Below are positions 2,148 through 61,451 of a stretch of 64,000 bases of DNA, piece after piece (position 1 is the first letter of the stretch; each line of letters opens with the position of its first letter). The position numbers and the translations under genes were made by a program. The stretch comes from a virus. The notes beneath the pieces were generated by a model. That model was not told the origin of the DNA. It saw only the letters and a list, made by a program, of their open reading frames with translations, and ran no database searches. The DNA is taken from positions 1 to 64,000 of the IMG/VR virus record IMGVR_UViG_3300021139_000005. One strand, 5' to 3'.

Positions 2148-2500
2148 ATATCCGACTTTAAATAGTTGATATCACGTTGTAATTCTTTTCCGGTGGAGGT
2201 GGCCGGACCCATTTTAAACACACAAAAATCATTCAGGTGGTTAGCATCTAGTTCTGTGACTACCTTTTGATACAGTTCAGCCAGGTAGTCCAAAGTTTCA
2301 AACCCTATCCAAAGTTCTTCGGTTTCCTTATCGATGATAAATTGGCTTGCATTCTCATTGGCAGCGTATTTATTGAGAGATTCTTGCTTTTTAGATAGCA
2401 TTGCCTCAAAAGCAGTGTACCTGTCCCCAAAGTCAGCTAATAGCGTCACAGACACCGGCAGGGGATAATTGTGCTTTTTGTAAAGTGATATGAGGCTCAT
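2144..2500 (-). CDS. Hypothetical protein between initiator and helicase genes
   Basis: A 118-residue, mainly helical soluble protein with no recognised motif (features: MSLISLYKKHNYPLPVSVTLL at the N-terminus, acidic and amphipathic centre). It overlaps both neighbours by 4 bases (ATGA), so it is translationally coupled to the replication initiator-like gene before it and the helicase after it. By position it could be a helicase loader or primosome accessory factor, but nothing in the sequence proves this. Confidence 0.6.
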   Translation of the reverse strand: MSLISLYKKHNYPLPVSVTLLADFGDRYTAFEAMLSKKQESLNKYAANENASQFIIDKETEELWIGFETLDYLAELYQKVVTELDANHLNDFCVFKMGPATSTGKELQRDINYLKSDI

Positions 2501-3417
2501 GATAATTGGCTTTTAGGGCGAACATCTGGCTTGAATCGATCATAATGGGCCTGTTCCTGTTCAGTAATTGGTACACCAACTTCAATTTTGTGCCGGATAT
2601 ACTCGAAATCGTTGTTGAAGTTCTGCTTGGGCTGTAGTTCTGGTTTTGGTTTTAATGATAATTGTAATTCAGGTAAAGAAACTTGACAAAACTTATCCAA
2701 CTTATCCGATCTTGTAAAGAACTCAGGAGTAAGGTACTTGAATCCATTTTCGATATGGTAAGATTCCTTGGAGGCGTTATTAACTGCAGATAATATTTCT
2801 TGCAAAGTACGCCCTTCTTTAATCCTGGCAATGAATCCTGTTTTGTCTTTTGTTGATCCTTTATACTTTTTACCCAAAAGAGAATTTATTCCCTCAATAT
2901 ACTGTTCGTAAGATTTCAAATAGGATTCAGATATCTCTTCTTTTCTTTCCTTCTTTTCTTTATTATCCTTCTTGTATGTGTCGAGTTGTTGTTGGTTCGT
3001 TGTTGGTTTGTTGGTTGTTTGTTGGTTGTTTGTTGGTTGTAGTCCTTGGTAACTATCGTATTTACAGATAGTTATCTTGGTGTATTTTGTAGTACTCTCT
3101 TGGCTAATCATTGCATCCTTTTTTAGCATGTCGAGGAAAGACCGCACTGCGCCTCGGTTCCAGCCCCACTCCATAGAGAGTTTTTCCTGAGAAGTTAATA
3201 GCTGCCCTCTTTCTAATTCTATAAGATCATAACCAACAGAACGCTTTTCAGGACTCCACTGAGCTTCCAGAAGAAGGTATATCCAGGCTTCAAGTTTGGA
3301 CTTCACCCGGCTTTCATTCCAAATCCAGTGTCCTTTAATGGACCTGAATACTTTAATGTAGCCGGCTTGATAATTTTCAGCAGGGTCTTCAAACAGCATA
3401 ACAAAAAATGGGCGCAA
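2497..3417 (-). CDS. Replication initiator-like protein (winged helix plus phage C-terminal domain)
   Basis: A 306-residue protein with a replisome-organiser layout. Residues ~15-115 look like a winged-helix DNA-binding domain (KLEAWIYLLLEAQW.. LTSQEKLSMEWGWNRGAVRSFLDML). A low-complexity N/T/Q linker follows, encoded by the TTGGTTTG-rich stretch near 2990-3045, then a lysine/glutamate-rich hinge. Residues ~175-245 match the pattern of the conserved phage C-terminal replication domain (INSLLGKKYKGS..IKEGRTLQEIL..YLTPEFFTRSDKLDKF). It probably recruits the adjacent helicase to an origin. Met7 is an alternative start. First gene of the leftward block, downstream of the minus-strand promoter at 3532-3539. 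Confidence 0.75.
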   Translation of the reverse strand: MRPFFVMLFEDPAENYQAGYIKVFRSIKGHWIWNESRVKSKLEAWIYLLLEAQWSPEKRSVGYDLIELERGQLLTSQEKLSMEWGWNRGAVRSFLDMLKKDAMISQESTTKYTKITICKYDSYQGLQPTNNQQTTNKPTTNQQQLDTYKKDNKEKKERKEEISESYLKSYEQYIEGINSLLGKKYKGSTKDKTGFIARIKEGRTLQEILSAVNNASKESYHIENGFKYLTPEFFTRSDKLDKFCQVSLPELQLSLKPKPELQPKQNFNNDFEYIRHKIEVGVPITEQEQAHYDRFKPDVRPKSQLS

Positions 3418-3531
3418 TCAAAGGGGTGCCGAACCAATAACCCGAAGGCAAGAAGTTTTCCCCTTTGACGCGCTTATCTTAAATATGAGTTCTGAAATGT
3501 CTTTTTCATAGAGTTATTGTGTTCGGCAGTG

Positions 3532-3539
3532 CAAATATA
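3532..3539 (-). promoter_or_regulatory. Leftward TAnnTTTG promoter
   Basis: Minus-strand TATATTTG matches the Bacteroidota -7 element; a TTTG lies 21 bases further upstream (around 3561-3564) at the position of the -33 element. It would drive the replication operon 2497-15 leftwards, with a leader of about 115 bases. Confidence 0.65.
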
Positions 3540-3607
3540 AACGAACAGTTTTCATACCACCAAATTTATTTTCACTTTATTTTTATCTTCACTCTTAAAA
3601 CTAACTG

Positions 3608-3639
3608 TTGTAAAAAATATTTTACAAATTATTTGTAAA
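3608..3639. promoter_or_regulatory. Overlapping palindromes, candidate operator
   Basis: Two inverted repeats share bases. TTGTAAAA-AATA-TTTTACAA lies at 3608-3627 (8-bp arms). TTTACAAAT-T-ATTTGTAAA lies at 3621-3639 (9-bp arms, perfect). The second contains the TTTG (3632-3635) that serves as the -33 element of the rightward promoter, so a bound dimer would block it. A regulator such as the XRE protein at 5786-6121 is a possible ligand, by inference only. Confidence 0.6.
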
Positions 3640-3656
3640 TCCAACTAAGAGTTGTT

Positions 3657-3664
3657 TATCTTTG
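3657..3664 (+). promoter_or_regulatory. Rightward TAnnTTTG promoter of the recombination operon
   Basis: TATCTTTG with a TTTG at 3632-3635, 21 bases upstream: a complete -33/-7 pair. The ATG of the RecT-like gene follows 17 bases after the element. Confidence 0.75.
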
Positions 3665-3681
3665 CTGAAAATACACACACC

Positions 3682-4455
3682 ATGGCAGAAGAAAAACAAG
3701 AATTATCAGTGCTACTTGACAACGAAGTAAGCCTGGTAGTCAACCAAAAAAACATCGAAGGATTCCAGATGGCTATCTCGGTAGCAAGGGGAATGGCAAG
3801 GCTTAACAGCATGATCACGGATGATTATATGAAGGAGATCATGCCCCTTCAGAACACATCGTTAGGTTTTAAGACGGACAAGCCGGAAGGATATCCACTA
3901 GCGGTAGCGAAGAAGTGCTTGATGGAGGCGGTACTTTGGGGCGTTCAACCTTGGGGTAACCAGTTCAATATTATCGCATCGAACATGTACATCACTGGAG
4001 AGGGATTTACCTACCTGCTGAAGAAGGTATCTGGCCTGTGGTATGAGATAATTGCCGGCATCCCGAAGATAGGGGACAAGAGCGCGGAGGTAGAAATGAC
4101 GATCAACTGGTCATTGAACGGTGGTACGAAGGAACAGCGTAAGCTAACCTTTGTTGTAAAGGTCAACTCATACATGGGTGCGGATGCGGTAATAGGCAAG
4201 GCAAAGAGAAAATCAAAGTGCTGGCTATTTAACACGCTTAATGATGTTGAGATAGTAGACGCTGATGCTGATGAACTTAAACAGGAGGTTATTCAGATTC
4301 AGGAAGAGAAGTACGATTGGGCCGACCTGGAATTATTGTATGACCTGAAAAAAGAAAAGCTGACTGAAAAGCAGAGAGCAAGTTCAGAACGGATCATAAA
4401 GGCACAGGAAAAAACTGGTTATAAGAAGCTGCAGGAGTTTTTAGCCGGTATATAA
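3682..4455 (+). CDS. RecT-like single-strand annealing protein
   Basis: About 257 residues from the ATG at 3682. A longer frame reaches back to 3652 but would start inside the promoter. The protein resembles RecT-family annealing proteins: an N-terminal helical region, then the YPLAVAKKCLMEAVLWGVQPWGNQFNIIASNMYITGEGFTYLLKK core typical of RecT substrate-binding strands, and later WLFNTLNDVEIVDAD. It should coat resected single strands and anneal them to homologous DNA. The next gene is a YqaJ-type exonuclease, which gives the classic exonuclease/annealase pair. Expressed from the promoter at 3657, probably under the palindromic operator. Confidence 0.78.
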   Translation: MAEEKQELSVLLDNEVSLVVNQKNIEGFQMAISVARGMARLNSMITDDYMKEIMPLQNTSLGFKTDKPEGYPLAVAKKCLMEAVLWGVQPWGNQFNIIASNMYITGEGFTYLLKKVSGLWYEIIAGIPKIGDKSAEVEMTINWSLNGGTKEQRKLTFVVKVNSYMGADAVIGKAKRKSKCWLFNTLNDVEIVDADADELKQEVIQIQEEKYDWADLELLYDLKKEKLTEKQRASSERIIKAQEKTGYKKLQEFLAGI

Positions 4456-6534: not shown

Positions 6535-7265
6535 TTAAACTTCTTATATTTGCATTGCTGTTTAACGAAGTCTATGCAAACCAAACTCATAACGAAAATA
6601 AACCCTGCCGTGATGCAACCTGCCTTCTGGCTTCGTTGAACAGCCATTACGGTGGGGCTAACTTTTTTATGAAACTTATACCTCTCAACACTCGAAAAGG
6701 AAATAGGTACCATGGAAAATATTTTGCTCAGGTAGATGATGCAGATTACGATTGGTTGATGCAATGGAAATGGTGTATTTGTAAAACAAAAAAAACTTTG
6801 TACGCGACAAGAACCGATAGAACAACTGGTGACTATAGGAGTGGTGGAAAGCATACTAGGGTAGTAATGCACCGTCAGATAGTGGGTGTTACTGATCCAT
6901 CCAAACTTGTTGACCATATTGACCACAATGGCCTAAATAATCAACGAAACAATTTAAGGGAAGCAACGAAGATGCAGAACTGTAAAAATAGAACCTCTAG
7001 CGATGGTTCATCGTCTAAGTTTTTAGGTGTTTGCTTATTTAGAAGCGGAGGTATTAAAATACCAGAAAGAATTAGGTGGATTGCTGCAATTGCTATTGAT
7101 GGAAAGTCAAAACACTTAGGCATATTTGAAAATGAAGAGGATGCTGCTCGAGCATATGATGATGCTGCAAAAATACATCACGGACAATGGGCAAATTTAA
7201 ACTTTAAAGAGAATGATGAAACCTGGAGAAGCAATGGTGTTCGTAGAGATACCACCGGCAATTGA
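6531..7265 (+). CDS. HNH homing endonuclease with AP2 DNA-binding domain
   Basis: The recognisable part begins at MKLIPLNTRKGNRYHGKYFAQVDDADYD (ATG 6669). It holds the HNH core (VVMHRQIVGVTDPSKLVDHIDHNGLNNQRNNLREAT, with the DHIDHNGLNNQRNNLR signature) and a C-terminal AP2-like module (SKFLGVCLF..RWIAAIAIDGKSKHLGIFENEEDAARAYDDAA). Such proteins nick DNA to copy their own gene. The first 46 residues (MIKLLIFALLFNEVYANQTH..) look like a signal peptide plus a short extracellular piece. They are foreign to this family, so they may be the 5' remnant of a small secreted-protein gene into which the endonuclease inserted. The end overlaps the next gene by 53 bases. Confidence 0.82.
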   Translation: MIKLLIFALLFNEVYANQTHNENKPCRDATCLLASLNSHYGGANFFMKLIPLNTRKGNRYHGKYFAQVDDADYDWLMQWKWCICKTKKTLYATRTDRTTGDYRSGGKHTRVVMHRQIVGVTDPSKLVDHIDHNGLNNQRNNLREATKMQNCKNRTSSDGSSSKFLGVCLFRSGGIKIPERIRWIAAIAIDGKSKHLGIFENEEDAARAYDDAAKIHHGQWANLNFKENDETWRSNGVRRDTTGN

Positions 7266-18181: not shown

Positions 18182-19936
18182 ATGTTGGTACCGTCGCAAA
18201 TATTAGCTGCCCTTAAACTAAGCAGCGCTGTTGTTTTAAACAATGCAACGGCTCCGTTCAACACGATTCAGACCAGCGATATTACAAACTGGTCTGGTGC
18301 TTTGGGTTTAAATCCTGCAACGGATTCCGCGAAGCTCATATTCAACATAATTAATCCGCTGGGTATTCCGGTCTACACAAACGTAGGCTGGAATACTTCC
18401 AGTTTTGCTGCTCCGGATACAGTGTTCAGCAATACACCTAACCTTACTGGTCCATTGGAGACATTGCCGGTATTGACAGGGAGTCCAACAAATGAGGTTC
18501 TTTCAGGAGCCTATAGCGTGTATGTAATGTTCTCAGTAGTTCAGGGAGGCAATCCTGCGGTTACCGGGGAGGGGGTGTTCACTACAACCATTAACGCTGA
18601 CCTGCTGCTGCCTAATCCTACGATTACTGGCACCTATGCATGCAACACATCTCCTACAACGTTTACCGCTACAGATACCACGGTTCTTGCAACCACTCTT
18701 TATTTATTCTCTTCAGCGGTTCAGAGCATCACAGTAACTCCACCGGTAGTATCGGGTCAAACTCCTACAACTGCGTCAGGAAACACTGTTACAATCAATA
18801 ATTTGTGGGCACCGGCTCCTTATCAGTATAACTCATCAGGAACGATAAACTATACCTTGGGGCTTGATACCTTCGCTGTAAACTATACTCAAAGTGGATA
18901 TACTGATGTTATATGCAACACTGTCCTCTGCGCGATGTACTGCTGGCTTACGCAGATATCTAAGGATTTTGCATGCGAACGTAACGCAACTACTAAGGCG
19001 CTTTTAGAGCAGAGATTGATATTGGGGGATGTATACTATGCTCAGGCACTAAGGGCGCAGGTTTGCGGTGATTCTGGCGGTTTCCAGAGCGCTATTGCAA
19101 TGTTCAACAAGGTTACCTGGTTTGATGGTAACTGCACTTGCTGTGATAACCTCCCTCCAATGCCGGTTATACCTTCAGGTCAGGTTGGTCCAGCGGGTCA
19201 GAATGGTTTGACTCCTATCTTCCAGTTCGCTGGCGGGTGGTTACAATACAAGTATACTACGGGAACACAGCCATGGACGAATCTTTATCAGCCACCGGCA
19301 GGTGTTCCGGGGCCAGCGGGAGCGAACGGATCGAATGGCGCTGCTATTCTTTGGAATGACTTCACTAATTCGGTTAATACCTTAACCACTCCACAACCTG
19401 TTAAAACATATCAGCTTGCCGGGAATACTGTAGTAGGGATTGGGTCGCAGATTCTCATTTTTACGAGAGCAGAGATTATTCAGGCAAACATAATGACCGC
19501 GACAGTAACTTTTGGCGGTTTAACGCTGGCCACAGCTACATTGAATTTGAATACTGGCCAAAATCCTGAAGTATATTTTGAAATTTCTGTTGCAAATACG
19601 GGAGTAGGATTGGGAGAGGTGGTGTTCAAGATTTATACGCTCGATGCGGGAGGAGGAGTGATGCATCAGGTAATATCAGAACCTACCGGAATTGCACCTG
19701 ATTGGACGGTAAACAACAATATACAATTGGTAATTACTGCCGATTCTACAACAGCACCAGGCGGGGCAGTATGCAAGCAATTAACCGTTAAGTTGGAGCA
19801 GATAGGTGTTCCGGGAGCAGGCTTGGCGCCAGCGGGGATATATGCAAACGATGCTGACGCTGCGGCAAATGGTGTTCCTTTAAACGGATGGTATACAACA
19901 GCAGGTAACGGATATTTAACTCAAAGACTCACCTAA
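18182..19936 (+). CDS. Structural protein with short collagen-like segment
   Basis: About 584 residues from ATG 18182. The frame is open 30 bases further upstream, but that part is the UUCG hairpin. The first ~240 residues are Thr/Asn/Pro-rich beta sandwich-like sequence ([30 protein letters not shown]). A helical, cysteine-containing segment follows ([51 protein letters not shown]), then collagen-like pieces ([24 protein letters not shown]) and a C-terminal beta domain ending [29 protein letters not shown], as in phage fibre tips. Probably a head or tail fibre. It touches the next gene at ATGA-type overlap. Confidence 0.6.
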
Positions 19937-21462
19937 TGAAAAAGCTAATTTTCATCTCTTTACTCTTGATGGTAAGAGTATTTGTCAGTGCTCAATATCC
20001 TAATGCAATACCTGGGAAGGGAATCATTGTAAGCCGGTATGATACTTTAAGACAGTCAACTATTGCAGATAGCTTTCATACGGTTGGGCAGGTAATGACC
20101 TGTATCGATAAGTATGGAGACTTGGTGCTTAAACCGGCTAGTGGTGGTGGCGTAACTGGTCCAACAGGAGCAACAGGAACAGGAGCAACAGGTCCAACAG
20201 GACCAGCAGGAGGGCCAACGGGACCAAGTGGTGGAACCGGAGCAACGGGTCCAAGTGGCGGTCCGGTAGGGCCAACAGGATTAGCAGGCCCAACAGGCGC
20301 GGTAGGTGCAACGGGCATTGCGGGTGCAACCGGTCCAACAGGAAGTATATCAGGAGCATGGTCATTAACAGGAAACGCAGGCACAACACCGGGAACAAAC
20401 TTTATTGGAACGACCGATGGACAAGATTTAGAATTTAAGGTTCATAGTAACTTTGCGGGAATCATAGACCAAGCGAGTTCTAATACATCTATCGGGTATT
20501 CATCTAATAGCAACAACGGGTCAACTTCTACTGCCATTGGGTATGCCGCTATGCTATATCAAAACTTAACGGCATCAAATAATGTGGGCATTGGTAATCT
20601 TGCGCTAGAATCGGCAGCGGGTTCATCATATAATGTGGCTATTGGTTCTAGGGCAATGGTAAATACTAGCAACGGACAAAGAAACGTTGCAATAGGGTAT
20701 CAAGCAGGACAGCAAATATCCACCGGGCAAAGCAACGTAGCGATTGGGTATGGGGTAATGCAACAGTCATTTGCGGGTTCTTATAACGTGGCGATAGGTG
20801 CAAACAACCTACCGTATTGCAATGGATGTAATCAGAATACATCATTAGGTCTAGGCGCATTAAATAGTGTTGCAAATGGCACTCTTAATACCGGTGTAGG
20901 ATATGGTGCAGATATTGTAGGTAATGGGCAAACAGAATCTACTGCGATAGGAGCAGAGGCTGTTGTTGGTGAAAGTTACGCAATCTCATTAGGCGATACA
21001 ACAAACTCTTTGCAGGTAGGTATAGGAACAGCTTATCCACAAGCGTTACTTGACCTGGAAGTTGGTTCGGCTCAATCAGGAGAGGTAGGGTTTAGGTTAC
21101 ACGATGGGACACAGGGAACGGGCAAGGTGCTCACTTCAGATGCAAATGGTAATGCCTCATGGGTATCATCCCCATCCTTAAATGCCCAAATCGATACCGT
21201 CACTAATCTTACCGGCTCAACTCTAACCCTAACCAAAAACGTATTCAATATCGTTACGAGCGCATCACAGATTTTATCTATAACGCTTGCTTTGCCGGCA
21301 GGAGTAACGGGGGATGCTATAGGTGTTCAGCTTATTTACGCGACAGCTAACCTGATAGCAATAAGTGGCGCAAATACGGGAACGATTTCAACGATACAGC
21401 ACACAAACGTAAAAAACGGGTATCAAATTATTTTACATAACATCAACGGAAACTGGTATTGA
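19936..21462 (+). CDS. Collagen-like, YadA-head-like fibre protein with signal peptide
   Basis: A 508-residue protein. It starts with a Sec signal peptide ([20 protein letters not shown], cleavage after SAQ), then a collagen-like G-P-T/G-A-T region (residues ~72-137). About 170 residues of trimeric-adhesin head repeats follow (NVAIGSRAM.., [11 protein letters not shown].., NVAIGYGVM.., NVAIGANNL..), then a C-terminal beta domain. The layout is that of secreted Bacteroidota adhesins or tail fibre-domain proteins. A cleavable signal on a gene inside a virion operon is unusual: it may be exported to the cell surface, or the signal may be kept as an assembly segment. Confidence 0.7.
20150..20345 (+). 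repeat. Collagen-type GXY coding repeat
   Basis: About 65 codons of tandem Gly-x-y triplets ([19 protein letters not shown]..) encoded by near-repeats of GGTCCAACAGGAGCAACAGG type; prone to slippage and length variation. Confidence 0.8.
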
Positions 21463-47351: not shown

Positions 47352-47865
47352 GATCATAACTCATTTCGGGAAAGGCCTACAGCAGACTCCGTCCGGCCAT
47401 TGGGCATATAACGGCCATGTGCTGTATAACTTCATTGCCTTACGTGGAATCAAGGGTCTTGAAATGCGCGGGGAGGCCGAAAGGTTTGCTTCTCAGTATT
47501 CAGAGGAACTCACAAACAAGCTCGTTGACATGGAGACGGCCATCTACAAGAGGGAGGTGGCAGAGTGTATTAAGCCGGGTATCCATCTTGAGCATTACCA
47601 GGTAGCTGCCCTTATCAGCTTTGCCCACAGTATTGGTATCTCAAACTTCGCACATTGTGCTACGGTTAAGTGCATCAACGAGGGTAAATCCTTAGAGGTC
47701 GCAGCGGATTTTATGCTACAGTGGGTGAAGGTCAATACACTCGGATTATCCCATAAAATGCTACTCAACAACAAAGAAACTTTAAAACTATCACCGGAAC
47801 TCATCGGTAGAAGAAAGGCAGAGAAAAACCTGTTTTTGACAGGAATACTATCTTTGCCTTCGTGA
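47320..47865 (+). CDS. GH24-lysozyme-like protein without obvious catalytic glutamate
   Basis: A 181-residue protein whose C-terminal half follows phage GH24 lysozymes ([47 protein letters not shown].., ending [16 protein letters not shown]). At the N-terminus, where active enzymes read ..FEGLRLKAY..TIGYGHT, it reads [26 protein letters not shown]. The expected catalytic Glu is Gly, and the GYGHT stretch is not recognisable. It may be a binding or regulatory derivative; the M15 peptidase at 50146 may do the wall cutting. It overlaps the upstream membrane protein gene. Confidence 0.65.
47849..47856 (+). promoter_or_regulatory. TAnnTTTG promoter, 5 bases before GTG start
   Basis: TATCTTTG-CCTTC-GTG(47862), within the end of the lysozyme-like gene. 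Confidence 0.6.
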
Positions 47866-49754
47866 AGCAGATAACATTCATCCTATTACTTATTACGGCT
47901 GCAATACAGGCGCAAAACATATCTGGAACGGTAACTGTGGTCAACGGTACCGCAACGCAGCAAACAAGCCCCAATCCAAGCCCTCTTTTAATTGTCAGAG
48001 GTACTAACCAGGTTCCACCTCCACAGGGTCAGTTTTCGAACGGTGCATGGTTCTATGATGCTAAGTTGAAATATTGGTATCAATTGTCAGGGGGAACAGG
48101 TGCTACTGGAGCAACAGGGGCAGGTGCCACTGGAGCAACGGGATCAACCGGAGCTACAGGTGTTACGGGTCCAAGTGGTCAGGATGGCGCAACAGGCGCA
48201 ACAGGCGCAGGCGGTGGAACAGGCACATCAGGACCAACTGGTAGTAGTGGACCTACCGGAGCATCAGGCCCGACAGGTAGCAGTGGCGCAACGGGAGCAA
48301 GCGGTAGCGGTGGACCGTCAGGTGCAACGGGTGCAACAGGCCCCACCGGATTACAGGGTATTACCGGACCAACAGGAGTTACCGGCATTACAGGTACCAC
48401 AGGCGCAACCGGCATCACCGGCGCAACCGGATTACAAGGAGTTACGGGTGTTACCGGCCCAACCGGAGCAAATGGCAGCAATGGAACAAATGGGGCGACG
48501 GGCAGCACAGGCGCGACAGGAGCCACAGGAGCCACAGGAAGTAGCGCAAATAACTGGTTGCTTACAGGTAATACAGGCAATGTGTTTGGCACAAATTTTA
48601 TTGGCAATAAAGATTCAATAACCTTTCAAGCCATTGATAGCGGGATACCGGTTATTACCACGCAAGTTACCGGCAACCAATTTATAGGCATCGGCAAAAG
48701 GGCGGGGCAGAACAATACAGGCGCAAATAATTTAGCTATTGGTAATTATGCAATGCGTTATAATCCCGGTGGAACAAACCTGATAGCCATAGGTAACAAT
48801 GCGCTTGCTCAAACAGCGTATAATACTCAAAACAACAACTACGATATTGCTATTGGTAATTACAACATGATTTTGTCGAACAATGAAAATTATGTTGTTA
48901 GTATCGGTTATGGAGCATTTAGCGGAACAAATCAGAATGCAAGTTTCAGCACCATCATAGGTGCGGGTGCTTTTAATGGTAACTTTGGTAATAATAACAA
49001 CACACAAAATTGCGCTATTGGTTATGCAGCTTTACAAAATGGTGGCTATAATAATGTTGCTATTGGTTATTACTCCTTATGGAATGCCAGTGGCACATCT
49101 AGTAATATAGCCATTGGTTCGGGCGCACTTGCGAACTCTGGTGGCTCTAATATCTGTATTGGCAATGCGGCAAACACAAGCACACAATTTCTTAATGGAC
49201 AATATAATGTTATCATAGGCAATTTAAGCAATGTAAGCAATTCATCGGGTAACAACTCTGTATCGGTCGGGTATAACTTATCTGTTCCTCCATCGGCAGT
49301 GGCTTTTGGTATGACAAACGGCTTTAACGGCATGGGTGATACGCTGATATATATTAATACTCCAACGCATACCCTTTTATTCACGGATACGTTTGCTTAC
49401 AAGTTGGCAGAATCAGCAGCAGATACCAATGTTGTAAACTATTTAAATCAAGTAAGGAGAGATGTAGCATTAACTGGGTCATTAGTATTAACAACAGCCT
49501 CTGGTGTAAATACTCTTTCAGTAAACTATTCATATTATGATAGAACTGGAGCATATAAAACAGGAACATTTAAATTAACAAATACATCAGGAATTACAAC
49601 AACAGTAACTTCAGTTGCAGATACATATTCTTTTGGAATAGATGATATAGTTACTAATCCATTACCTATTGTAATAAGAGTATCATCGACAGGCGGCTCA
49701 CCTACATATGATATTTTTGCACGAATCACGAACATTACAACTACCAACAAATAG
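47862..49754 (+). CDS. Collagen-like, head-repeat secreted fibre protein
   Basis: A 630-residue protein from GTG 47862: signal peptide ([18 protein letters not shown]), short beta domain, a ~150-residue collagen-like region (residues ~77-228, GATGATG.. and GPTGSSG.. repeats), then ~200 residues of trimeric-adhesin head repeats ([13 protein letters not shown].., [10 protein letters not shown].., [13 protein letters not shown].., [10 protein letters not shown]..) and a C-terminal beta domain. Same architecture as the gene at 19936, in a second, separate position. It probably trimerises through the collagen part. The signal peptide implies export, possibly to coat the infected cell or to serve as a fibre assembled after secretion. 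Confidence 0.72.
48090..48545 (+). repeat. Long collagen-type GXY coding repeat
   Basis: About 150 codons of Gly-x-y triplets (G-A-T, G-P-T, G-S-S) encoded by near-repeats such as GGCGCAACAGG; the antisense and shifted frames are open only because of this low complexity. Confidence 0.85.
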
Positions 49755-51969: not shown

Positions 51970-52542
51970 ATGCTACCAGCACAAGCATTTTTCAGCGGCC
52001 TTCAGGCTATAAGCTGTAACTCAGATTTTTATAACACCGCTGCACCTTGCTTGCAGGATTTCAATACCTGGCAGGTAGCGTCTATCGTTGCTGCGTATGG
52101 CAATGATATCAATGGCAACAAGGTAGGGGTGTTCCACTACGTTTACTCAGAACTCAAGAAGAAAGTAAACAGTGTATTGCAATTCCCGCGTCCTGACTTC
52201 AACAGCGATATCACAGTTGCTGCGCTGAAGACATGGTTCGATGCTAACGTTCCAAACAACCAGTTAAGGCTGTATAAGAACCTGATATGCATCGACAAGA
52301 ATCAGGCACAGTTAGCCAACATCAACGGGGCGAACTATTCGGACGTTCTGTTGAATGATCTGAAAGTTATGCGCCGGGAATATGATCCTACATGGGTTCA
52401 GCCAAGCACATCTCCAAATAATCCTACTGTTACACCGGCTACGCACATTTATGTGTATCAGGGTAATGAAACGGATTATAAGATTTTTACTTGCCTTGGC
52501 GACCAAACTTTTGCCGGAAACGGTTACTATGGTAACTATTAA
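51970..52542 (+). CDS. Hypothetical protein
   Basis: A 190-residue protein (MLPAQAFFSGLQAISCNSDFYNTAAPCLQDFNTWQVASIVAAYGND..) with a mixed fold and C-terminal strands (THIYVYQGNETDYKIFTCLGDQTF). No signal peptide, membrane helix or catalytic motif. It is transcribed between its own promoter and the next promoter at 52548. Not recognised; perhaps a minor late structural protein. Confidence 0.55.
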   Translation: MLPAQAFFSGLQAISCNSDFYNTAAPCLQDFNTWQVASIVAAYGNDINGNKVGVFHYVYSELKKKVNSVLQFPRPDFNSDITVAALKTWFDANVPNNQLRLYKNLICIDKNQAQLANINGANYSDVLLNDLKVMRREYDPTWVQPSTSPNNPTVTPATHIYVYQGNETDYKIFTCLGDQTFAGNGYYGNY

Positions 52543-52547
52543 TTGAT

Positions 52548-52555
52548 TATATTTG
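52548..52555 (+). promoter_or_regulatory. TAnnTTTG promoter of structured leader and HNH gene
   Basis: TATATTTG; with the usual start 5-7 bases downstream, the transcript would begin at about 52560-52562, exactly at the first base of the structured leader. Confidence 0.65.
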
Positions 52556-52560
52556 TCTTA

Positions 52561-52646
52561 TGATGTCCGCTAGCATCAGAAAGATATTTAACTTTTAAAT
52601 TCCCTTATCGAAAGGTGTCTAGCGGCATCCGGAGGTAGGGGAATTT
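52561..52646 (+). ncRNA. Structured leader RNA with kissing-loop pseudoknot
   Basis: Hairpin 1: TGATG/CATCA (52561-52565 with 52574-52578), loop TCCGCTAG. Stem 2: 52597-52607 with 52636-52646 (11 pairs, one G-U). Inside stem 2 is hairpin 3, GGTG/CATC (52614-52617 with 52626-52629), loop TCTAGCGG. The loops of hairpins 1 and 3 are complementary over 7 bases (CCGCTAG with CTAGCGG). The 3' strand of stem 2 ends 6 bases before the ATG, and a GGAGGT lies just before that strand (52631-52636, its last base within the strand). The fold could therefore control translation of the HNH gene, or be a ribozyme or riboswitch-like RNA. Confidence 0.6.
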
Positions 52647-52652
52647 CTTTTT

Positions 52653-53195
52653 ATGAAAACAATAACAGTTCATAGTAAAACTCATGGCATTTATCAAATT
52701 TTAGTAGACGATGAAGATTATAAAATAGTCTCTAAATACAAATGGTCAGTAATAAAACGAGAGCACACCCTTTATGCATTTACTAGTAAAAACATTGGGA
52801 ACAAGAAAACACTGGGGATTACTATGCACCGTATGCTTATGGGAGATAGCGCAAAAAATATGCAGATAGACCATAAAGATGGAAATGGTCTTAATAATCA
52901 AAGAGGAAATATTAGATTGGCTACAATTAGCCAAAACGCTATGAATCGTAGAAAGCATAGATTAACTTCATCAAAGCACTATGGAGTAAGCAAAAAGACT
53001 CAAATAAAACACTTTAAAAGAGTTGACGGAGGTGTTACTACTGTAAAATATGAATGGTGGAGAGCTTCTATTACGATTGAAGGGAAGGTTGTTTCTAAAA
53101 TGGGATTCAAATCCGAAGAAGATGCTGCTAAATGGAGAGATGAATTAGCAAAAAAGCATCACGGAGAATTTGCTAACTTAAACTTTAAAGATTAG
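52653..53195 (+). CDS. HNH homing endonuclease with AP2 domain, second copy
   Basis: A 180-residue protein of the same type as the one at 6669-7265: VDDEDYKIVSKYKWSV, the HNH signature MHRMLMG..QIDHKDGNGLNNQRGNIRLATISQN, and an AP2-like C-terminus (WWRASITIEGKVVSKMGFKSEEDAAKWRDEL..EFANLNF). The two share overall layout but differ widely in sequence, so they are separate arrivals or old duplicates. The base composition looks more AT-rich than that of neighbouring late genes. Preceded by a promoter and a folded leader; followed by a bidirectional terminator. Confidence 0.82.
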   Translation: MKTITVHSKTHGIYQILVDDEDYKIVSKYKWSVIKREHTLYAFTSKNIGNKKTLGITMHRMLMGDSAKNMQIDHKDGNGLNNQRGNIRLATISQNAMNRRKHRLTSSKHYGVSKKTQIKHFKRVDGGVTTVKYEWWRASITIEGKVVSKMGFKSEEDAAKWRDELAKKHHGEFANLNFKD

Positions 53196-53218: not shown

Positions 53219-53246
53219 GGCCGTTCAAATGCGAACGGCCTTTTTT
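53219..53246 (+). terminator. Bidirectional terminator between convergent blocks
   Basis: GGCCGTTC/GAACGGCC stem with T-run on the plus side; on the minus strand the same stem lies at the stop of the 53225-53521 gene. It separates the rightward late block from the leftward block. Confidence 0.8.
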
Positions 53247-53521
53247 ATTTTATCTACCCTGGCAGATAGATTTGTGTCAACGGAGATAGCCTCCTTTATA
53301 ACCTTCCTGTAATAGATGGCCATGTTCTTTCCTTTCCGGTTGAGGCATTCCCTTATTTCATCATTGGTCATGTCGGTAAACTCGCACAGTAATAGGGTCA
53401 GTACCTGTCTGGCCAGCATGAGGTCATCGTTCCTCCTTGGGCTGCGGAGTTCGTGCATGGTCAGGTTGAACTCCTTGCAGGTCTCGGCAACAACTCTTCG
53501 GTATACAGCGGACTCGGTCAT
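53225..53521 (-). CDS. DnaA domain IV-like DNA-binding protein
   Basis: A 98-residue protein resembling the C-terminal DNA-binding domain of DnaA: ETCKEFNLTMHELRSPRRNDDLMLARQVLTLLLCEFTDMTNDEIRECLNRKGKNMAIYYRKVI. This corresponds to the basic loop/arginine-x-x-x-A-R, helix-turn-helix and dHtTV-like region (here NMAIYYR). Without the AAA+ part it could bind DnaA boxes as a regulator of host or phage replication initiation. It overlaps the glycosyltransferase gene by 1 base (TGATG) and ends inside the terminator. Confidence 0.65.
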   Translation of the reverse strand: MTESAVYRRVVAETCKEFNLTMHELRSPRRNDDLMLARQVLTLLLCEFTDMTNDEIRECLNRKGKNMAIYYRKVIKEAISVDTNLSARVDKIKKAVRI

Positions 53522-61361: not shown

Positions 61362-61451
61362 TGGAGAGTATTGGGCTCGAACCAACTTCCTTCTTGGTGA
61401 AACAAAGCCATTTGAAAAACCAAGATGCTCTACCTAATGAGCTAACTCCCC
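61362..61451 (-). tRNA. tRNA with 24-base anticodon loop (17-base insertion), tRNA-Glu-like if spliced
   Basis: A 90-base cloverleaf reads leftwards. Acceptor stem GGGGAGT/ACTCTCC (one G-U pair), D-arm GCTC-ATTAGGTA-GAGC, T-arm GTTGG-TTCGAGC-CCAAT and a 5-base variable loop are all normal. The anticodon arm is abnormal: stem TCTTG/CAAGA closes a 24-base loop instead of 7. The stem can extend to 7 pairs, and an inner CAAA/TTTG hairpin is possible. Removing any 17-base stretch in the 5' part of the loop leaves GTTTCAC, the standard loop for anticodon UUC (Glu). As written, the gene could not read codons normally. Confidence 0.75.

Follow-up and report, generated by a model that had tools for sequence, protein, structure and literature searches.

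A kissing-loop leader RNA before an HNH endonuclease gene and before unrelated genes of Bacteroidota phages

In the lambdoid phage HK022, transcription of early operons is affected in cis by the put RNA, a promoter-proximal leader of two hairpins which is not known to have a terminator hairpin or loop-loop pairing and acts on the polymerase directly. In pT181-type attenuation, a kissing contact works together with an intrinsic terminator located ahead of the coding region. Engineered versions of such kissing attenuators have been described (PMC3753616, PMC4878617), and the stand-alone phage homing endonucleases mobE and segB are controlled by hairpins in their leaders (PMC3014915). In this work we have analysed a leader at positions 52561-52646 of a 64-kb window, the whole stretch of DNA examined, which belongs to a 72.4-kb virus record. 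Like the leaders of the T4/Aeh1 homing endonucleases (I-TevI, mobE, segB), it places RNA structure directly before the start codon and has its own promoter. However, those leaders mask the ribosome-binding site, whereas the start region of ours lies outside the helix, and the U-run, the loop-loop pseudoknot and the use before other genes are features of the leader studied here. With transcription attenuators and terminator-type riboswitch leaders it shares the succession of promoter, folded leader, intrinsic-terminator signature and gene, but it is without a known aptamer, leader peptide or antiterminator, and the loop of its first hairpin pairs with the loop of the putative terminator itself. 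The combination of a kissing contact with a predicted intrinsic terminator ahead of a coding region recalls pT181, with the difference that pT181 uses a separate antisense RNA as kissing partner and our leader a partner in cis. The likeness to put, as a promoter-proximal two-hairpin phage leader, is one of architecture, the putative terminator hairpin and the loop-loop pairing being features of our leader. Two hairpins in loop-loop contact within a leader are also seen in the purine riboswitch class, but our leader has no three-way junction, conserved core or Rfam match.

Fold and promoter of the leader

By similarity search, the closest counterparts of the structural protein and terminase of the window are found in Flavobacterium elemo and Cellulophaga phages, and a Bacteroidota host is therefore likely. 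The leader lies on the plus strand between an ORF at 51970-52542, for which a search found no relatives, and a gene at 52653-53195 encoding an HNH_3 endonuclease of 180 aa (PF13392, phrog_99). It is preceded at 52548-52555 by TATATTTG, a TAnnTTTG -7 box of the primary sigma factor of Bacteroidota. This promoter motif has been described (PMC9723704, PMC7366714) and occupies -12 to -5 (PMC9723704); the predicted +1 is about 52560, one base before the first hairpin, which agrees with the proposal of the initial annotation that transcription from this box would begin at the first base of the fold. In HNH leaders such boxes are concentrated about 100 nt before the ATG, with window examples at 52548 and 6545.

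The first hairpin, P1 (52561-52578), recognised from sequence and fold, has the form TGATG-TCCGCTAG-CATCA, with arms at 52561-52565 and 52574-52578, and its loop carries the 5' strand of the loop-loop helix, Xa (CCGCTAG, 52567-52573). A linker at 52579-52596 contains AAGATATT, an A-rich motif seen again in relatives. It is followed by the terminator-like outer stem P2, whose 5' arm Ya (AAATTCCCTTATC, 52597-52609) and 3' arm Yb (GGTAGGGGAATTT, 52634-52646) were located by folding and pseudoknot scan and enclose the inner hairpin P3, GGTG-TCTAGCGG-CATC (52614-52629; fold). The loop of P3 holds the 3' strand Xb (CTAGCGG, 52619-52625), which, like Xa, was identified by pseudoknot scan and partner swap. 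The U-run TTTCTTTTT (52644-52652; U-run count), a terminator signature, abuts the ATG. The length of the predicted leader RNA is about 93 nt. The nested hairpins are the minimum-free-energy fold (-32.6 kcal/mol, z -3.6, none of 200 shuffles equally good), and scored as a pseudoknot the leader reaches z -4.2 to -5.2. CCGCUAG and CUAGCGG form seven Watson-Crick pairs with P = 0.004 when both loops are shuffled; since shuffling gives such a match in 0.4% of cases, the single example by itself is only suggestive. The two hairpins with loops complementary over 7 bases are thus present as had been reported, and so is the outer stem, although it comprises 13 pairs including G-U rather than 11. Its 3' strand does end 6 bases before the ATG. 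The GGAGGT noted beside the stem exists at 52631-52636, but 16 nt from the ATG it is too far away for a Shine-Dalgarno role.

Relatives, covariation and downstream genes

Copies of the HNH family are scarce in Bacteroidota chromosomes (14 of 395 genomes), and the survey therefore rests on viral contigs; in all, 280 distinct leaders of HNH relatives were gathered from viral contigs and genomes. They were examined with a scanner that compares two crossing helices with dinucleotide shuffles, using contiguous helices and simple stacking energies. A pseudoknot z below -5 was obtained for 23 of the 280, compared with none of 700 leaders that belong to other genes of the same contigs, and a clear feature was seen in only 40 of the 280. 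Most members of the leader family are metagenomic, and the sets used overlap one another. A pattern search with the exact loops hit four contigs, all of them chance matches within a single coding gene, in antisense. The same kind of fold precedes the first HNH gene of the window (ATG 6669, plus strand) and is among the best of the 280 (z about -10): the box TATATTTG (6545-6552) is followed by P1, TTTGCAT...ATGCAAA (6549-6580), with Xa (6557-6572) within its loop, and then by Ya (6603-6615), Xb (6629-6644) and Yb (6645-6657), CTAACTTTTTT and the ATG, as located by the pseudoknot scan (z -10.5) and the U-run count.

So that the test would not be circular, the promoter box, the stem with U-run and the ATG served as the criteria for choosing 40 leaders, and the loop-loop helix was ignored in the selection. 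A helix of -10 kcal/mol or better is formed by the cognate loops of 32 of these 40, compared with 8.9% of non-cognate pairings in a partner swap; in 22 leaders no other partner scores better than the cognate one, against an expectation of 1. The 36 members which bear the helix have 35 distinct Xa strands, and all four types of Watson-Crick pair occur at each of the six core positions. Three cultured sister phages of one Flavobacterium host have three different complementary loop pairs at one locus: GUGGAGG/CCUCCAC in elemoE, UGAGAGC/GCUCUCA in elemoA 7-9A and GUGAGAUG/CAUCUCAC in elemoA 2-5C. In these orthologous leaders, read by eye, P1 is altered yet still paired, and all of them lie upstream of one shared small gene adjoining a replication gene. 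The kissing-loop fold at 52561-52646 is confirmed. The two hairpins, the outer stem and the loop-loop helix persist in homologous leaders while their sequences change; a lack of compensatory changes, named in the initial annotation as the outcome that would speak against the fold, was not observed. There is strong support for a structured leader RNA of regulatory type which carries its own promoter and a loop-loop pseudoknot, and the covariation makes its structure secure ahead of experiment.

The relatives differ in architecture. In class A, to which the leader at 52561-52646 belongs, the 5' strand lies in the loop of P1. Class C has no P1; its 5' strand runs from the predicted +1 and pairs over 10-17 bp into the loop of P2, and only a short linker (0-13 nt) separates the pseudoknot strand from P2. 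The two classes are united by architecture and the A-rich linker, and are likely of common descent. A AANAUAUU-type linker is kept in many members, and outside it sequence conservation is absent. A third form (L174, L379, L280) consists of two plain hairpins which kiss over 7 bp; the second of them looks like a textbook terminator. The leader before the VapE gene of Cellulophaga phage phi46:1 has the promoter box and no clear kissing fold. Many class C leaders (L147, L169, L082, L196, L369, L269, L372, L380, L256, L341, L352, L184, L331) have an ATG immediately 3' of the 5' pairing strand, and the reading frame of 25-36 codons that it opens runs in frame into the HNH start or overlaps it. Leader-peptide control, which these frames suggested, was rejected: in phi46:3 the frame is cut early by an extra T that is uncompensated relative to phi19:3, and class A members have short frames or start-stop codons, so the upstream frame is not a constant feature. 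In two relatives without a folded leader, a promoter box almost abuts the HNH ATG (L003 upstream of 2983, TATATTTG; L007 upstream of 2965, TAGGTTTG), which suggests leaderless or nearly leaderless HNH mRNAs.

Which genes stand behind the leader? A pattern scan that required only TATATTTG, AAGATATT and a later TTTNATGA found the fold before genes for a VapE-type primase/helicase (L405), replication initiation proteins (L442, L446, L448), an endonuclease-VII-like protein (L425, L430), a CoiA-type nuclease (L431), a DUF6378 protein (L393) and unknown small proteins. A second descriptor, which required neither the linker motif nor an ATG, gave 36 matches in real DNA with a score below -32, compared with 1 in shuffled DNA. 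Nearly every high match precedes an ORF, for example that of a GpA terminase (L404), and in nearly all matches the gene starts 6-23 nt after P2. Among cultured phages, Cellulophaga phi19:3 and phi13:2 carry the leader before a gene for a 222-aa protein, itself upstream of a DNA replication protein, and in phi46:3 an almost identical leader precedes an HNH endonuclease (PF01844) unrelated to that protein. A comparison of phi46:3 (KC821622) 2400-3009 with phi19:3 (NC_021789) 3329-4110 reveals the same leader before different genes, both starting ATGGCTAAA, and a gene swap at the boundary of leader and gene is probable. The supposed tie to a homing endonuclease is not supported, as the same RNA is found before unrelated phage genes for primase/helicase, replication initiators, terminase and others; the strict association with nuclease genes expected of a HEARO- or omega-RNA-type element was not found. 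Since near-identical leaders stand before unrelated genes, the leader behaves as a portable module. It is probably a portable on/off control part listed in no RNA catalogue so far, because the same device precedes many unrelated genes in Bacteroidota phages, including cultured ones. The timing of genes in these phages is little understood. The leader is widespread and structurally defined; in the cultured phages elemoE and phi19:3 it precedes replication operons, and mobile endonuclease genes have picked it up.

The outer stem and possible modes of action

At least 6 T among the 8 nucleotides after P2 were counted in 67.5% of 40 pseudoknotted leaders, compared with 6.7% of HNH leaders without a pseudoknot, 3.5% of control leaders and 11.7% of shuffled tails. 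Two features expected of an attenuator leader are present: the promoter lies directly upstream of the fold, and a U-run follows the stem ahead of the coding sequence. In non-Bacteroidota relatives (L341, L352, L251, L295, L189), which have sigma-70-like promoters and use Shine-Dalgarno sequences, the order is hairpin, U-run, Shine-Dalgarno (GGAG) and ATG, with the GGAG 3' of the U-run and outside P2; the U-run is therefore distinct from the ribosome site, which the stem leaves uncovered. Bacteroidia ribosomes ignore Shine-Dalgarno sequences (PMC9976891), and intrinsic terminators have been annotated in the transcriptomes of B. thetaiotaomicron and F. psychrophilum (PMC7366714, PMC9723704). T4-type masking would place a Shine-Dalgarno sequence or the AUG inside the helix; neither was found there in the leader at 52561-52646 or its relatives, and masking of the ribosome site by the outer stem was rejected, given the distance of the GGAGGT from the ATG and the place of the GGAG in relatives. 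Because the U-run is separate, Shine-Dalgarno sequences go unrecognised in Bacteroidia and the GGAGGT is so far off, the outer stem is better read as a putative intrinsic terminator than as a ribosome-site mask. A generic terminator scan with a loop limit of 8 did not report P2, whose apical loop is larger than that of a standard terminator. As the X and Y helices have no bases in common, a classical antiterminator is not apparent, and inspection revealed none.

What the sequences show is a promoter motif, a fold that is conserved and covaries, a U-run, their position and the use before unrelated genes; premature termination, its promotion by the loop-loop helix and switching by a phage or host factor are our inference. 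We lean somewhat towards a promoter-proximal transcription attenuator, in which the loop of a terminator would be captured by the first hairpin. RNA polymerase would start at the TAnnTTTG promoter and P1 would fold first; the P2 loop (Xb) would pair with the P1 loop (Xa) as the apical part of P2 leaves the polymerase, and P2 would then close to form, with the U-run before the ATG, an intrinsic terminator. P2 alone has a large apical part (about 24 nt), and capture of Xb by P1 would pre-organise it and could speed its closure. The loop-loop helix would set how often polymerase halts ahead of the gene, possibly by promoting rather than preventing termination, and some phage or host factor, perhaps reading the A-rich linker, would change the outcome. 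The U-rich stretch before the ATG could, however, serve translation instead. More tentatively, these leaders may form an unlisted phage RNA family, a portable part for replication, packaging and homing endonuclease genes in which a loop-loop helix formed in cis with the first hairpin would gate an intrinsic terminator, the A-rich linker being the likely contact of the switching factor.

Could the short RNA itself be the product? A stable molecule of about 90-100 nt, its two ends paired in helices, might act as a regulator or as a stabilised 5' end, with the gene expressed by read-through. Such a product would fit the predicted +1 at the start of the fold and the U-run at its end, the paired 5' end of several members in which Xa starts at the predicted +1, and the divergent loop sequences with conserved shape, which suit a structural role; nevertheless, a gene start so regularly placed 6-23 nt after P2 would be needless for a stand-alone RNA gene, and we consider this unlikely, though plausible. 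The closeness of P2 to the ATG, only 6 nt, and the leader-hairpin control of mobE and segB (PMC3014915) would also agree with translational control, in which P2, clamped by the loop-loop helix near the start codon, keeps 30S subunits off like the hairpins of phage T4-type homing endonuclease genes. This has a small chance of being right, as the start codon and the Shine-Dalgarno sequence both lie outside the helix, with the GGAG of relatives 3' of the U-run, the U-run is left unexplained, and, in contrast to the read-through arrangement of T4, a promoter of its own stands at the first base of the leader.

A further reading is a riboswitch-like sensor, in which a ligand, or a protein of phage or host, would be bound by the pseudoknot and the A-rich linker and the terminator gated in this way. 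The AANAUAUU-type linker is conserved in many members and loop-loop contacts are common in sensor RNAs, but no sequence is conserved outside the linker and the downstream genes share no pathway, which makes a sensor improbable. Still more so is a self-cleaving ribozyme or a HEARO/omega-RNA-like partner of the HNH enzyme: the position directly upstream of an HNH gene and the superficially HDV-like nested-pseudoknot topology of class C recall such RNAs, but there is no Rfam match and no conserved catalytic-like position, and the same RNA precedes non-endonuclease genes. As for a chance complementarity of two unrelated hairpins, one 7-bp loop match at P about 0.004 is not extreme for a 64-kb window; this reading is nevertheless refuted by the covariation among orthologues, the scan controls (0 of 700 leaders; 1 shuffled match against 36 real ones) also speaking against it, and is hardly credible.

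Database comparison and other features of the window

The Rfam/Infernal search proposed in the initial annotation was run on the window leader, and with the Rfam 15 covariance models, at gathering and permissive thresholds, no family matched it or the relatives tested. Of the suggested riboswitch-, ribozyme- or autoregulation-type RNA, the structured leader of regulatory type stands, while no ribozyme or riboswitch family matches. A ribozyme identity was rejected for want of an Rfam match and a conserved core; an HDV-like P4 and J4/2 catalytic region and an HDV match were likewise not found. A kissing-loop terminator leader was not found in the open literature searched, and an earlier description is possible among the many subscription papers outside that scope. 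A second, different leader RNA, a three-way junction beginning at the promoter, occurs before related HNH genes (L024 upstream of 649, L027 of 1504, L032 of 1501, L074 of 1465, L115 of 1465, L134 of 1462, L162 of 1471 and L171 of 1462), and its members L024, L032 and L035 have no Rfam match. It contains AUAG-(hairpin)-UGA around a conserved loop, and its third loop has two complementary sites on the 3' side, the first immediately following the junction and the second shortly before the ATG; these two alternative pairings look like a switch.

Incidental Rfam matches elsewhere on the contigs were to tRNA, tmRNA and weak or below-threshold families (pan motif, Plastid-ycf2). A permuted tmRNA (RF04321, over the gathering score) lies near an HNH gene on a viral contig (L032:2960-3193), and the window has a tRNA gene (RF00005) at 61362-61451 on the minus strand. 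Also on the minus strand, 53225-53521 encodes a small protein with the C-terminal DNA-binding domain of DnaA (PF08299), which occurs in Cellulophaga phages too. Two further window genes, at 47862-49754 and 19936-21462, encode proteins with collagen-like Gly-X-Y (GATG) repeats and N-terminal signal-like sequences, which are probably phage surface or adhesion proteins.
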